NCBI GenBank assembly: GCA_002104895.1
Contig: MCFG01000383.1
Coordinates: forward strand, 1 to 40,000
Direction: 5' to 3'
From: Anaeromyces robustus
Lineage: Eukaryota; Neocallimastigomycota; Neocallimastigomycetes; Neocallimastigales; Neocallimastigaceae
Length of the DNA stretch: 40,000 bases
Shown: piece after piece, positions 2,650 to 39,436 of the stretch
Layout: each line of letters starts with the position of its first letter
Position numbering within the stretch: position 1 is the first letter of the stretch
Translations under genes and position numbers: made by a program
Notes under the pieces: model-generated
Told to the model about the DNA's origin: nothing
The model's input: only the letters and a program-made list of their open reading frames with translations
The model's database searches: none

Positions 2650-8461
<5,812 letters not shown>

Positions 8462-23611: not shown

Positions 23612-23628
23612 ATTATTTTTTATTATTT

Positions 23629-23630
<2 letters not shown>
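23612..23630. repeat. Target site duplication, copy at poly(A) end
   Basis: ATTATTTTTTATTATTTTA lies directly against the T36 tract (the poly(A) of the minus-strand insertion). It is identical over all 19 bp to 24652-24670. Because the sequence is low-complexity AT, some chance similarity is expected, but an exact 19-bp match abutting the tail on one side and the start of the coding frame on the other is hard to explain otherwise. Confidence 0.7.

Positions 23631-23666
<36 letters not shown>
23631..23666 (-). other. Poly(A) tail, 36 nt (T36 on plus strand)
   Basis: This is the longest homopolymer noticed in the window. It begins 20 nt after AATAAA in the minus-strand sense, as expected for a genuine mRNA 3' end, and stops exactly at the flanking duplication. 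Confidence 0.75.
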
Positions 23667-23667
<1 letters not shown>

Positions 23668-23686
23668 GCAATAAAATAATGAAAAC

Positions 23687-23692
23687 TTTATT
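23687..23692 (-). promoter_or_regulatory. Polyadenylation signal AATAAA of the retrocopied transcript
   Basis: AATAAA on the minus strand is followed by 20 nt and then the 36-nt poly(A). The hexamer is common by chance in such AT-rich DNA; its spacing to the tail is what supports the call. Confidence 0.6.
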
Positions 23693-23834
23693 TAAATTTA
23701 ATTTAAAAAGTACATGTTATAAAGTAATTGTACATATTAAAACTTAATCTAATAAAGAATAATAATTTATTATTTAATAGATAGTAATAATTTATAATTA
23801 CTTCATATGGTATAGTGTATATTATTAAATTAAA

Positions 23835-24641
23835 TCAAGTTGGAAAGTTATTATCATTATTAGATGCGTGTGACCTACTGTCTTGTCCTACTGAATTGTC
23901 AGCTTCGACGCTCTTGGTTAGATTGTTGGGATACCTATTGAATAATGACCAGATCTGGCCACTAACAGTAGGCATAATTCTAAGTAAAAGTGCGGATGTA
24001 CGTACCAAAAGTGGAACATCCGAAAAGGTGCTAGGTTTAAGTTGCGCCTTACAAAGACTGTTCCACTCCTCTTTCCCCAAGTTATAATGATTAACTCTTC
24101 CACCAAGAAGGAAATAATATACCCTACTCCATTCCAACGAGTTGGAATGAAAATTTACCCCACTTGAAGCATTACTAACTAAATTATTATAATTAATACT
24201 ATTATTTAAACTATTATTATTGTTGTTGATACTATAACTGAAAGTATTATTTAAGTTGTAAGTTAAACTAACATAATGAATAAAACTATTAGAAACTAAG
24301 AAAGTACTATTTCGTGAAGAATTCTCCAAGGAGGAGAAATTGTTGAAGTAATTAAAACCAAAAAAAATGTTGTTGATAGTTAAATTATTAATGAATTGAG
24401 AGTAGTTGTATAGAAAATATGTAGATAAGCTAGTACTATTACTATTACTAACATTATTAATATTACTATTATCATTGCTATTACCATTATTATTACTATT
24501 AATATTAATATTACTATTACTACTGCTATTATTATTATAGATATTATCATAAATATTATTATTGTAGTTATTATTAAAATTATTAGAAAAGTTGATATTA
24601 TCAGAACTAACTAAAGGTTTTCGATTAACATACAAATAAAT
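23835..24641 (-). pseudogene. Asn-rich protein, C-terminal 268 aa, unidentified
   Basis: The frame is open for 268 codons from the 5' junction of the insertion to TGA at 23837-23835. No ATG occurs until 46 residues from the end, so this is the C-terminal part of a longer protein. The first half is Asn/Ser-rich low complexity. A roughly 100-residue non-repetitive region follows with WSRVYYFLLGGRVNHY, GKEEWNSLCKAQLKPS and RIMPTVSGQIWSLFNRYPNN. The last third is about 43 percent G+C, far above the surroundings, and uses more G/C-ending codons than the two host genes. I do not recognise the family: there is no zinc knuckle, reverse transcriptase or RNase H motif, no signal peptide and no clear membrane helix. 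The overlapping plus-strand frame at 23815-24087 (90 aa) is most likely antisense to this one. Confidence 0.6.
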
Positions 24642-27360: not shown

Positions 27361-29636
27361 CATACTATTATTTTTATTCTTTAATCCATTCTATTCTTTT
27401 TATATTATTATTCTTTTTATATTTGTATTTTATTTGTATTTCATTATATTATATTATATTATATATTGTATTGTTTTTTCATTTTTAATTTTCATATTCA
27501 TTTTTAATATTTCAAAATTTCAAATTTTCATATTCATTTTCATTTGTAAAATTCTGTCATTTTAATTTTAATAATTATTTTTTTTTTTTAATTTTTTTAA
27601 TTTTTTTTAAATTTTTAATTTAAATAAATTATGTTAAAAACCCTAAAATAAATAGGTTACACAAACATTTAAATGAATTTTTAATTTGTATCACGATATT
27701 TAATCATTTTTCATTTATCTATTATATATTATAATAATAAAAATTTAATTTATAAATAATAGATATTAAATCATTTTTAATTTATTTTGTTTTATCATCT
27801 TTTATTTATAATTTATTCAATATGTAACAATAGAATATTGGATTTAATACAACTATACCTCTTTTTTATATTAATAAAATAATTAATAATAATTATTAAT
27901 AATTAATAAAATATAAAATAATTTTTTAATTTATTTTTTTATATTTTTTATTTTTTTATTTTTTATTTTATTTTTTAACTATTTCCTTTTTTGGAAATAA
28001 TCATTTATAATATATTATAAATATAAAATAATATATTATTAATAATATATTTAAATATAATTTAATATATAAATAATTACTTGGAATTGATTCAAAAAAT
28101 GTAAAATGTAAAATAAAAATAAAAAAAATGTTAATTTCTGTCAAAAAAATAAAATAAAATAAAAAATGATGGAGAAAAAAAAATTTTTTTTTTTACTTTT
28201 TAAAGATTAATCTATAACTACATATATAAAATTAGTAAAAATATCCTATTACAATATAAAAAGAAAAAAATTAAATATTTTTCTGTAATAATAAATTATT
28301 TTATTATTATTATTATCTTATAATATATATAATACATTTAATAATTATTATTATTATTTGATTGTTTCATGATTATGATTTTATTATTTAATTATACAAT
28401 AACTTATTTTATTAATTTGTTTTATTTTTTTTATAACTTTTCTTTTTTGTATAAATTTATTTATTTATTTACTTTTTTATTTTTTTTTTTTTTTGTTACT
28501 GTTTTTTTTAATTAATTAATTATAATTATTATTAATAGAAAAGTCTTAATGAAAAAACAAGAATATTTTTTTTCTGTTTTTCTGTTTTTCTGTTTTTTTT
28601 TTTTTTTTTTTTTTTTCGAAAATTGTTATTTCTTTACTATTACCATTACTTATTTAGTAAAATATTAGTTAATATTTTTTAACATACATTGATTTATGTA
28701 TAACACATGATTATCATTCCTTAATATTTTTTATTAAATTAATGCTATATATGACCATATAGAATTCAACAAAAAAAAAAAAACAATCAATAAAATAAAA
28801 ACAAAACAGAAAACAAAACAAAAAAAATAAAAAATAAAAAAAACACAAAAGAAACAAAATAATAATAAAAACAACTATATAATACTATTATATTGATATT
28901 AATATAAATATATAAGATTTTATATATTATAAATATATTATAATCAATTAATAAATAGATTATAAATAATTAATAAATAAAAAACAAATACAAAATAAAT
29001 AAAATATAAAATATTAAATATAAAATAATAAATATAAAAAAAAAATTTTTATAATAATTAAATAATTAATAAATTTAATATAATTAATATTTAAATCATA
29101 ATTAAATAATAAATAATAATATTATATAATAAATATAATATAAAAATGTTTTAATCTTTTCTTTTTTTTTTTTTTATTTAAAGATTTCCTTTAATGTCTA
29201 GAGTTTTTTCTTTTCTTTCTTTCTTTTTAAACATAAAATATATAGATTTATTTATTTATTCATTCATTCATTTATATAAAATCATTTTGTTTTTTTATTT
29301 TTAGTTATAAAAACATTAGATTTTGTCTTTACCTTTTGTTTTTAATTTTTATGTATTGTCTTATTTTTTATTAATAGTTTAGCCAAAATTAAAAGAATAG
29401 AAATTTTATATTTAATTTTTGTAATATTTTTTTTTGTGTTTTTTGTATCCTTTTTTTTTTAAAAGTTAAAAAAAAAGAATTAATTATAATATAACATAAT
29501 ATTATGTAATATATATATAAAAAAAAAAGATATTCATTTCTTTTTTTATATATAATAATAAATAATTATTATAGTAATATAAAATACGAAATATAAAATC
29601 AAGAATAAAATAAAATGAAATAAAAGAGATTTCAAT

Positions 29637-35329: not shown

Positions 35330-38300
35330 ATGAATACCCTTGTAGAAGCAAAGGAAGATTATATAGCTCAAGGAGCTGATCAACTTTCATTTAAGAAAGG
35401 TGATATAATTCAAGTTATAACACGTTTAGATAGTGGTTGGTGGGATGGTTTCTGTAATGAAAAAAGAGGATGGTTTCCATCAAATTTAGTTAGAGAAACA
35501 TATATAGAAGAAAATCAAACTGTACAATGGTATCCACAATTAGATGCTAAAGGAATTCAATATTATGTAAATTCTAGAACCAATGAAATATCTTATGAAT
35601 ATCCTTTAATTAAAACTGTCAATGATAGTATGAGTCAAAGTAGTGGTGGTATTGATAATCTTCCAAAGAATTGGGGAGTAAAATATACACATGATAATCG
35701 TATTTATTATTATAATAAAGAAACCGATGAAACTTGTTGGTCTTTAGATGAAATTAATTTAGAAACAGGTAGATTAAAAAATAAACGTAATAGTACTAAT
35801 TCCATTTCTTCTATAAATGAAGATATTATTGTATCTACAAGTCCAAAAGAAGGTGAATTAACTTGGAAAAAACTTGCAAATGATATATATTATTGTTTAC
35901 AACAACTTTTAAGTTCAGCTCGTTTAAATAAAAAGGAATCTTATATTAGTCATTCTACGGCAATTGTTGAAACTATTCGTACTATGCTTTATGCTTCCAA
36001 TGCCGCAAAACGTGATTCCCCTGTACTTAATGGAAATAAACCATTAAAACAACAATATAAACATATCATGAGTTCATTATCAAAATTAGTTGTTACGACT
36101 AAAACGGCTTCTCAAGTCTGGCCACCACCAGATTCTGTACCAATGATGCAACAAGCTGCTAATGAAGTCTATCTTAGTGTAAAAAATTTCATTCATATTG
36201 CTAAAGAATTAAATATACCTTTAGATATCAAACTTGTAGAAGAAAGTAATAAGGATGAAAGTAAAGAGGAAGAGGATCAAGATGATAGTCAACAACAAAA
36301 TCCTACTAAAATTATTTCTCAATTAGAAGAATATTCTAAAACGATTAGTCAAAGTACTCAAAAATTAATTAAAACGGTACGTACATTAGAAATGGTTTCT
36401 ACCGAAACTATTATTGCGGAAACAAAAAATATTGTCATTGATGTTGGTAATTTACTTGCTGTTATTGATGAAATAGATTATGAAACTTTGGATGAAGATA
36501 TTGTAAAAAGATTTAAATATAAACGTATTGCTGTATGTAATAGTATATCTGGTTTAGTTATGGCTACTCAAAATGTAGTAAGTACTTTACTACCAAGTAA
36601 TTTTGAAGAACAAATTTTATTAAGTATTGAATTAATTGAAAATGCTGTAAAAGATTTTGTTATTGCCACTAAATGCCTTTTACAAGAAAAGGAAAATGTT
36701 GATCAATTACAATACCAAAGAATGTTTTATGATTATAATAATCATAGATATTCTACTGCTTCCTCTGAAAGTTCCTATAAAAGTATGAATCTTTTAAATT
36801 CTGCTTCCTCTAATATAAGTAATGAATCTGCTCCATTACCAAGTACCAATACCATAAATTCTGCCATTTTATCCCATAAACCTAGATCTATGTCTCTTCC
36901 AGGTGTAGGTTTAGAAATACCTAATGGTGAATATCATCATGATTATGAAGAATCTCAAAATAATAGAAATAGAACTTATTCTCAACCCCAACATTCCTTA
37001 CCAAATAATTATATTGCCGTTGATAATAATTATATTTATGCTAATACCAATATAGATAATAGTCCTAATGTTTTTACTTCACCTACCCCATCTCTTCATA
37101 ATTCCAATCCAAGTAGTGCTAGTAATGTTTCATCCCGTAAAAGTTCAGCTCAATCTTCTACTCCAATTTTACCACCTCCTCCACAACTTTATTTTGATCC
37201 AACTGCCGCCCCAGTAGATATTGATCAATTTAGAAAACAAAAATCTTCCAATGCTAAATTAATGAAAGTTTTAGGTAGAGAATTTTCTTCTAGTGATTTT
37301 CATGGTAATAACGCTGGAAATAATAGTGAATCTTCCAAAAAATGGTATTTACGTTATGATTATGATCCAAAGGATCTATTATTTAATATGGAAGGTAAAG
37401 TTAAAGGTGGTACCTTTGATGCTTTAGTAGAACGTTTAACCCTTCATGATTATTATGATGCCAACTTTACCACCACCTTCCTTTTAACCTATCGTTCCTT
37501 TAGTTCATCCACGAAATTAATGGCTGCTCTTTTAAAAAGATATTCCTTACCACAACCTCCAGGTCTTACCGATTTAAATGAAGTTAATGAATGGCATGAA
37601 AAGAAATTAAAATTAATTCGTCTTCGTGTTTGTAATGTCGTAAAATCTTGGTTCGAATCCTATTGTATTGAAAAAGATCCAGATGATCAAAGAGCTTTTG
37701 AAATGGCAAAAGAATTCTTTGAAAGACAAATTCAAAGTGATCCAACCTTCCTAACCGTATCTCAACTTTTAGATAAATTTGATAAAGGTTTTGCTAAAAA
37801 AATTATACCAAATCCAGGTCGTGAAGCACCACTACCTATTTTCCCAAAAAGTTTACGTAATCGTATTCGTTTTATTGATTTAGATCCAACAGAAATTGCA
37901 AGACAATTAACTTTAATGTGTTCTAAATATTATAATCAAATTCAACCTGTAGAATGTTTAAATAAGGCATGGTCTGATAAAAATAATGAAAATACTCCTG
38001 CTGTAAATATTAAAAAGATGATTGAAATGTCTAATCAAGTCTCTGGTTGGTTAGCCTTAACCATTCTTCAAGAAGTAGATATTAGAAAACGTGCCTCTAT
38101 ATTAAAACATTTTATTTATGTCGCCGAAAAATGTTATAATTTAAATAATTTCAATACCTTAGTTTCACTTTTAGCTGGTTTTGATTCATCACCCATTTAT
38201 CGTTTAAGAAGAACTTGGGATTTATTAAGTAGTAAATCTATTAATATTTTAGAAAATTTAAAAAGAATTATGGATAGAGAAAAGAATTATAGTGCCTATC

Positions 38301-38752
38301 GTGAACAACTTCATTCTATTAATCCACCCTGTGTACCATTTTTAGGGGTATACCTTACGGATTTAACCTTTATTGAAGATGGTAATAGTGATGTTATTGA
38401 AAGAAAAACGGAAGAAACTGATAAAAATAAAACTTCTAATAGTAATAGTAGTACACCTACTACCCCTACTTCACCTAAAAAGGATGAAATTATTAACTTT
38501 AGTAAACAAAGTAAAGTAGCCGATGTTATACGTGAAATACAACAATATCAAAATCAAGTCTATTGTTTACATAGTGTACCTGAAATACAAAAATATTTAA
38601 AGGATTCTTTAGCAAGAACCGAAGAATTTTTGAAAATGTCAGAAAGAACAGATGATGAATCCCCATTATTTGAAATGTCTGAAATATTAGAACCCAAAGA
38701 ACGTGAAGATGAAAAACTTACAAGATTATTATTTGAATATGGATTCCTTTAA
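35330..38752 (+). CDS. CDC25: Cdc25-type Ras guanine-nucleotide exchange factor (SH3-WW-RasGEF)
   Basis: Activates Ras-type GTPases at the membrane by promoting GDP release; in yeasts the homologue Cdc25 drives Ras-cAMP signalling. One uninterrupted frame of 1140 aa. SH3 at residues 3-58 (GWWDG 36-40, GWFPSNLV 47-54). A degenerate WW at 66-93 has W67 but Tyr at the second Trp position; a better WW at 111-139 has W115 and W137. A helical region at about 175-460 is followed by a Ser/Asn/Pro linker with PILPPPPQ at 612-619. RasGEF_N begins near 686 (LTYRSF 719-724). The RasGEF catalytic domain runs from F848 to about 1120 with FIDLDPTEIARQLT, SNQVSGW (901-907) and PCVPFLGVYLTDLTFIEDGN (1000-1019). 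A 34-residue polar insert (1020-1053) follows that signature. The start is the first ATG and sits right at the SH3 edge. No introns, transmembrane segments, PH or DH domain. CDC25 orthology is inferred from architecture. Confidence 0.95.
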   Translation: MNTLVEAKEDYIAQGADQLSFKKGDIIQVITRLDSGWWDGFCNEKRGWFPSNLVRETYIEENQTVQWYPQLDAKGIQYYVNSRTNEISYEYPLIKTVNDSMSQSSGGIDNLPKNWGVKYTHDNRIYYYNKETDETCWSLDEINLETGRLKNKRNSTNSISSINEDIIVSTSPKEGELTWKKLANDIYYCLQQLLSSARLNKKESYISHSTAIVETIRTMLYASNAAKRDSPVLNGNKPLKQQYKHIMSSLSKLVVTTKTASQVWPPPDSVPMMQQAANEVYLSVKNFIHIAKELNIPLDIKLVEESNKDESKEEEDQDDSQQQNPTKIISQLEEYSKTISQSTQKLIKTVRTLEMVSTETIIAETKNIVIDVGNLLAVIDEIDYETLDEDIVKRFKYKRIAVCNSISGLVMATQNVVSTLLPSNFEEQILLSIELIENAVKDFVIATKCLLQEKENVDQLQYQRMFYDYNNHRYSTASSESSYKSMNLLNSASSNISNESAPLPSTNTINSAILSHKPRSMSLPGVGLEIPNGEYHHDYEESQNNRNRTYSQPQHSLPNNYIAVDNNYIYANTNIDNSPNVFTSPTPSLHNSNPSSASNVSSRKSSAQSSTPILPPPPQLYFDPTAAPVDIDQFRKQKSSNAKLMKVLGREFSSSDFHGNNAGNNSESSKKWYLRYDYDPKDLLFNMEGKVKGGTFDALVERLTLHDYYDANFTTTFLLTYRSFSSSTKLMAALLKRYSLPQPPGLTDLNEVNEWHEKKLKLIRLRVCNVVKSWFESYCIEKDPDDQRAFEMAKEFFERQIQSDPTFLTVSQLLDKFDKGFAKKIIPNPGREAPLPIFPKSLRNRIRFIDLDPTEIARQLTLMCSKYYNQIQPVECLNKAWSDKNNENTPAVNIKKMIEMSNQVSGWLALTILQEVDIRKRASILKHFIYVAEKCYNLNNFNTLVSLLAGFDSSPIYRLRRTWDLLSSKSINILENLKRIMDREKNYSAYREQLHSINPPCVPFLGVYLTDLTFIEDGNSDVIERKTEETDKNKTSNSNSSTPTTPTSPKKDEIINFSKQSKVADVIREIQQYQNQVYCLHSVPEIQKYLKDSLARTEEFLKMSERTDDESPLFEMSEILEPKEREDEKLTRLLFEYGFL

Positions 38753-39301: not shown

Positions 39302-39436
39302 ATTTTATATTTAAGTATGGCAGTCCATGAGGGACACACTACCACCTAATTATTAGGGAGTGGGCTTACTGCTTCACATTAGGGAAGGTCAAAGAAGCAT
39401 ACCCCGGTCATAGCAAAAAAAAAATTTTATATTTAA
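39302..39436 (+). mobile_element. Short retroposon: structured 100-nt unit, A tail, 13-bp TSD
   Basis: ATTTTATATTTAA at 39302-39314 is repeated exactly at 39424-39436. Between them lies a 100-bp unit (39315-39414) of 49 percent G+C, followed by ten A (39415-39424, the last one shared with the duplication). The flanking repeats abut the unit exactly on both sides, and the A tail is at the plus-strand 3' end. This is how a retroposed small RNA or SINE inserted by target-primed reverse transcription looks. It is non-coding: every frame is short. No tRNA-type A/B box pair, 7SL, 5S or U-snRNA signature was recognised, so the family is unknown. The tail and flanks are undiverged, suggesting a recent insertion. 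Confidence 0.65.
39315..39414 (+). ncRNA. Putative structured RNA (source of the short retroposon)
   Basis: The sequence can fold into a multibranched shape. A closing stem pairs GTATG (39315-39319) with CATAC (39398-39402). Hairpin 1 is GTCC/GGAC (39323-39326 with 39332-39335, loop ATGAG). Hairpin 2 is CCTAA/TTAGG (39345-39349 with 39353-39357), extended by CCA/TGG (39342-39344 with 39361-39363) across a GAG bulge. Hairpin 3 is TGCTTC/GAAGCA (39370-39375 with 39394-39399), whose last two pairs compete with the closing stem. The layout resembles a cloverleaf, but the lengths and missing T-loop sequence rule out an ordinary tRNA. I do not recognise it as a known ribozyme, riboswitch or spliceosomal RNA. 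It may be a dead copy, not an expressed gene. Confidence 0.4.

Follow-up and report, generated by a model that had tools for sequence, protein, structure and literature searches.

The window examined here, the first 40,000 nucleotides of contig MCFG01000383.1 of Anaeromyces robustus, has a G+C content of 9-17% in 19 of its 20 bins of 2 kb and of 30% in the bin covering 36-38 kb. An open reading frame of 1140 aa on the plus strand (35330-38752) resembles, by eye, an SH3-WW-RasGEF (Cdc25-type) protein. Approximately 560 bp downstream of the end of this frame at 38752 lies a block of 100 nt with 49% GC (39315-39414), followed by an A-tail and placed between exact 13-bp direct repeats, an arrangement whose coordinates and composition, as described in the initial annotation, were confirmed. 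The 5' copy of the target-site duplication, ATTTTATATTTAA, occupies positions 39302-39314 of the plus strand, was also called by the script applied to the whole family, and is identical to the exact 3' copy at 39424-39436 (plus strand); the tail consists of 10 A residues (39415-39424, plus strand), the last of which possibly belongs to the duplication. When compared with the full-length copy designated L009, the interval 39310-39414 matches its last 105 nt at 99%, the first 5 nt of this match falling inside the duplication with one mismatch there, and through this match the block at 39315-39414 (plus strand) is identified as the 3'-terminal 100 nt of a 5'-truncated SINE of subfamily A. The block is the 3' fifth of an interspersed element of about 500 nt and not a self-contained element.

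The window also contains, on the minus strand at 23626-24640 (upstream edge approximate), a LINE fragment with a poly(A) tail and an ORF of 266 aa, which belongs to a candidate helper-LINE class. Over 1001 nt, from 24626 to 23626, this fragment shares 99.7% identity with the 3' part of a LINE at G000:C1 (locus L074); the matching part of that LINE follows an RVT_1 match and continues its reading frame. Given this identity, recent movement of that LINE too is probable. By eye, the fragment is bordered on both sides by a repeat (TAAAATAATAAAAAATAAT) of about 19 nt.

No Rfam match was obtained in the window at the gathering score, and a permissive search with the block, one A element and one B element gave 13.0-17.3 bits, below gathering and with E-values above 1; on these searches a known small RNA, an alternative named in the initial annotation, was rejected. 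ARAGORN detected no tRNA or tmRNA in the window. The description of the block as structured found no support: the folding energy of the 105-nt RNA is -24.7 kcal/mol, where shuffles average -23.4 (z -0.41; 62 of 200 shuffles at least as good), and the 497-nt element gives a z of -1.51, with 7 of 100 shuffles equally stable. A special structure was rejected on these values, and since the fold is no better than that of shuffles, the term is unsupported beyond short stems.

Extent and composition of the SINE family

The full element measures about 496 nt in subfamily A and about 502 nt in subfamily B, in both cases followed by poly(A), with termini GTCAAACCAG...CATAGC in A and GTCGGTCCAG...TATAGA in B. 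It comprises a tRNA-like head, a non-coding body of about 330 nt, a 3' end that is nearly alike in both subfamilies, and the poly(A) tail; the longest stop-free stretch in the one full copy examined (L037) is 52 aa. Most copies share a 5' end located about 390 nt upstream of the block and are similar from that point on. The element has a G+C content of about 41%, compared with a mean of 13% in its flanks.

Pattern searches of the 70.2-Mb genome, allowing up to 3 mismatches, located the block core at 83 places and the tail at 88, and merging the head, core and tail matches yields 92 loci, so the single-copy alternative raised by the initial annotation is ruled out; reversed-pattern controls gave 0 matches. 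The head mark is present at 69 of the 92 loci (67 places from one head-pattern search and 2 found by another search only) and absent from 23. All three marks occur together at 64 loci, in one of which the head and core are spaced by just 47 nt, corresponding to an internal deletion; two further loci carry head and core with no tail within the mismatch limit, one carries head and tail with no core, and in two the head is the sole mark, one of the two loci lying at a contig end. The closely spaced marks belong to a SINE copy at G000:C257:243905-244051, where the usual head-core distance is about 360 nt. Pattern positions are the sole record for 22 of the 92 loci, and sequence was retrieved for 70 distinct SINE loci, 68 of which hold the tail motif (L054 and L071 are without it), after L015, L018 and L020 had been dropped as repeats of L003, L002 and L004. 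The statistics given below for 65 copies leave out L064 (contig edge), L014 (N after the tail) and L066 (too short). A search with one 20-mer in each of two collections, viral_contigs and genome_contigs, produced 0 hits, which is weak evidence, neither being a eukaryote collection.

Full-length copies account for 48 of the 65 (35 A and 13 B), and the other 17 are incomplete, consisting of 15 simple 5' truncations, the window copy included, and two internal deletions (L032 and L067), whose joints show an overlap of a few nucleotides. No two of the 15 truncations share a starting position in the reference (49, 53, 54, 56, 57, 63, 186, 241, 386, 390, 397, 414, 427, 430 and 441, with A and B numbered separately). 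Six of them (L008, L010, L044, L049, L050 and L070) start at reference 49-63, in the B box or immediately ahead of it, as though the tRNA-like arm were a frequent pausing site of reverse transcription. Poly(A) tails range from 4 to 61 nt, with a median of 26 over the 65 copies. Flanking repeats of at least 9 nt were found in 55 of 65 copies, as opposed to 13 of 650 control pairings in which the 5' flank of one copy was set against the 3' flank of another; the duplications are 9-17 nt long, mostly 11-13 nt, and a duplication of at least 9 nt is missing in 10 copies. Moreover, the 12-mer preceding the 5' end is unique to each copy (65/65). In the case of the window copy, a third copy of ATTTTATATTTAA is present in the window at 29403, and in DNA this rich in A and T the repeat by itself constitutes weak evidence; it gains weight from the excess of flanking repeats over mismatched pairings and from the distinct 12-mers throughout the family.

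Pairwise identity, with gap columns left out, averages 99.47% among full-length A copies (minimum 98.38%) and 99.7% among full-length B copies (minimum 99.2%). Judged by these values, the family is demonstrably young in the visible part of its copies, the pattern searches being limited to copies with at most 3 mismatches over 25-28 nt and the DNA searches having scored the best 40 of 99 and the best 40 of 86 first-look candidates. Subfamilies A and B are 90.65% identical in the one pair compared, and their differing columns, gaps counted, are distributed as 5 in the last 100, 6 in the first 72 (two of which are an artefact of the cut point of the A copy) and 47 in the middle 332. The difference between tail and middle gives a Fisher p of 0.013 and that between head and middle a p of 0.25. 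The small number of tail differences hints that the 3' end of the SINE may be under constraint, a reading drawn from a single comparison of two subfamilies. A more specific scenario, in which the SINE would have originated or arrived very recently and expanded in a burst of near-identical copies, with two subfamilies whose bodies are less alike than their 3' ends, and would perhaps have entered the lineage from outside, is considered doubtful; the possibility of such an entry is raised by the G+C content of the element, which is far above that of its flanks.

Mode of insertion and alternative origins

An A-tail, truncation at the 5' end and flanking duplications of 9-17 nt characterize insertions that LINEs make by target-primed reverse transcription. 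LINE-like RVT_1 matches spanning 762-771 nt numbered 39 among the best 150 of 463 first-look candidates, and 4 of 13 Exo_endo_phos_2 matches (on contigs C1, C79, C769 and C490) lie beside such a reverse transcriptase in a frame of the same length; LINEs with endonuclease and reverse transcriptase in one frame are present in the genome. We consider it very probable that the window feature arose by 5'-truncated insertion of a member of a young family of tRNA-related SINEs, for which a host LINE supplied the target-primed reverse transcription. In the proposed mechanism, RNA polymerase III would transcribe the SINE from an internal promoter, yielding a predicted transcript of about 500 nt that begins with GUCAAACC; the protein of a host LINE would then grip the poly(A) 3' end of this RNA, nick AT-rich DNA and reverse-transcribe from the nick. 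For the window copy, reverse transcription would have halted after 100 nt and left the shortened insert flanked by duplications of 13 bp. Two LINEs, one of them the LINE that has the 99.7% identical fragment in the window, run into poly(A) at their 3' ends. The 3' end of the SINE showed no resemblance to the 3' UTRs of these two LINEs (the score was equalled or exceeded in 87 and in 190 of 200 shuffles), and a tail borrowed from a LINE was rejected on this comparison, which covers the two LINEs; a third LINE class, present for instance at G000:C490 and C57, has a reverse transcriptase of about 768 nt.

According to the initial annotation, the block might be a retroposed copy of an unknown small RNA, and its 100 nt were treated as a unit. 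A reading of this kind, in which the 100 nt are themselves mobile, either as a SINE of very small size or as a retroposed small RNA, and also form the 3' part of a longer element, draws on the near-equal lengths of the window copy (100 nt) and a copy on contig C18 (about 97 nt), which have different 13-nt duplications. It is nonetheless highly improbable, given that truncation points vary from copy to copy and the majority of copies are full-length, that no B-box motif, strict or loose, is found in the 100 nt, and that the fold shows no excess structure; the block being the 3' end of a longer element, neither the 100-nt unit nor the small-RNA origin is retained.

The block could instead be the 3' end of a LINE or another longer element rather than of a SINE, a view to which we assign a similarly slight probability. 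Poly(A), 5' truncation and duplications are equally typical of LINE copies, LINEs are present, and one pair of copies has a common 5' flank of about 890 nt; against this, 48 copies have the same 5' start, the preceding 12-mers are all distinct, the longest stop-free stretch is short in the full copy examined, and the two LINE 3' UTRs are unlike the block. The pair in question consists of L009 and L034, located on different contigs, in which this 5' flank is 99.2% identical and breaks off at the insertion point (98.999% over 1598 nt when the element is included), and which have their own duplications, ACAATTATTAT and AATGTTTGTAA respectively, and their own 3' flanks. Simple independent insertion gives no explanation of this shared flank. 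Among the matches listed, most other shared flank stretches look like simple repeats, L009/L034 being the exception. L006 and L013 have a weaker upstream extension (79-80%, with many gaps), and L042, L051 and L056 one of about 75-95 nt, in all five cases in AT-rich DNA. Upstream of the subfamily-B copy at L039 (G000:C13:196000-204300), two direct repeats of about 2.1 kb that are 88.8% identical were observed at positions 384-2485 and 2829-4897 of the locus.

Derivation from a DNA transposon (MITE) has a negligible probability: the element is short, repeated and accompanied by direct repeats, but the first and last 40 nt form no inverted repeats in the two copies tested, one A and one B (an equally good score was obtained from 300 and from 223 of 300 shuffles), duplication length varies, and variable A-tails and 5' truncation are no marks of MITEs.

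The tRNA-like head and relationship to known SINEs

An A-box-like motif, TGGTTGTTAAGG, and a B-box motif, GGTTCGANNCC, are present in all 48 full-length copies, the second located 39 nt past the first in the two copies measured; we take both to fit the A- and B-box consensus. When the head was compared with tRNA genes of the host (12 of 63 reported matches: 5 Thr, 2 Cys, 2 Gly, 2 Arg and 1 Ala), the best z was 5.15, for tRNA-Ala(CGC), with 0 of 300 shuffles scoring as high; z was at least 3.76 for 9 of the 12 and 1.9-2.4 for the other 3. The top score of the head was 41 (with a tRNA-Thr), as against 20.5-28 for the ten other segments, the first of which overlaps the head. Meanwhile, ARAGORN reported no tRNA in 8 SINE loci, six of them with the head, and Rfam made no tRNA call in one A and one B copy. 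The similarity to host tRNAs supports the description of the head as tRNA-related. A candidate parent gene resembling tRNA-Ala(AGC) was rejected, as a head-based pattern met no separate tRNA gene: all 67 of its matches carry the letters of the SINE, 66 of them identically and one with a single change. A run of five T residues located about 95 nt into every full-length copy (48/48) could end Pol III transcripts early.

Short, non-coding and non-autonomous, the element is classed as a new family within a well-known type, the tRNA-headed SINE, and not as a new kind of small RNA. The suggestion of a retroposon and of a new SINE family made in the initial annotation is borne out by the 92 loci, the A-tail, the flanking duplications and the tRNA-like head, the family being undescribed as far as the literature was searched. 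SINEs of the Alu type are moved by L1, carry an A-tail, are flanked by duplications and have a head related to 7SL RNA. The gut-fungus SINE is similar to Alu in its A-tail, its duplications and the lack of 3' similarity to the LINEs examined, whereas its head resembles a tRNA and not 7SL RNA, with no 7SL-type Rfam match in the window or in the A and B elements searched. The host of MgSINE is a different fungus, an ascomycete. MgSINE of Magnaporthe grisea is described as a tRNA-derived element of 472 bp with ca. 100 copies, and by this description it is near to the gut-fungus SINE in size, build and copy number (PMC5063351). The AfuSINE2 families of Aspergillus fumigatus are characterized as elements of 140-493 bp with a tRNA-related head, a tRNA-unrelated region, Pol III promoter motifs and duplications of 4-14 bp, a build that by description is like that of the gut-fungus SINE in head, promoter motifs and duplications; the AfuSINE2 families differ in their low copy number and in one member that ends in ACT repeats, where the gut-fungus family has 92 loci and poly(A) (PMC5063351). 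Other fungal SINEs mentioned there as having the same build are Foxy and nrs1 (PMC5063351).

Among the open-access papers listed, titles and abstract beginnings describe no SINE from anaerobic gut fungi, and those of the papers listed on transposable elements and LINEs of Neocallimastigomycota name no SINE of the group. If no earlier report exists, this would be the first SINE family of gut fungi with defined ends, subfamilies and duplications. It offers a test case for the choice of targets by retroelements in DNA of about 13% GC, and since full-length copies are about 99.5% identical, the presence or absence of individual insertions could serve to mark isolates. The case also teaches that calling a short, repeat-flanked block an element is premature until its other copies have been set beside it. 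As for the host, dockerins are linked to anaerobic gut fungi (Neocallimastigomycota), and the abundance of CBM_10 (dockerin-type) domains in this genome, taken together with its very AT-rich composition and its size of 70.2 Mb, points to a member of that group; the best 150 of 683 first-look candidates all scored over the cut-off, compared with 0 of 14 control genomes.
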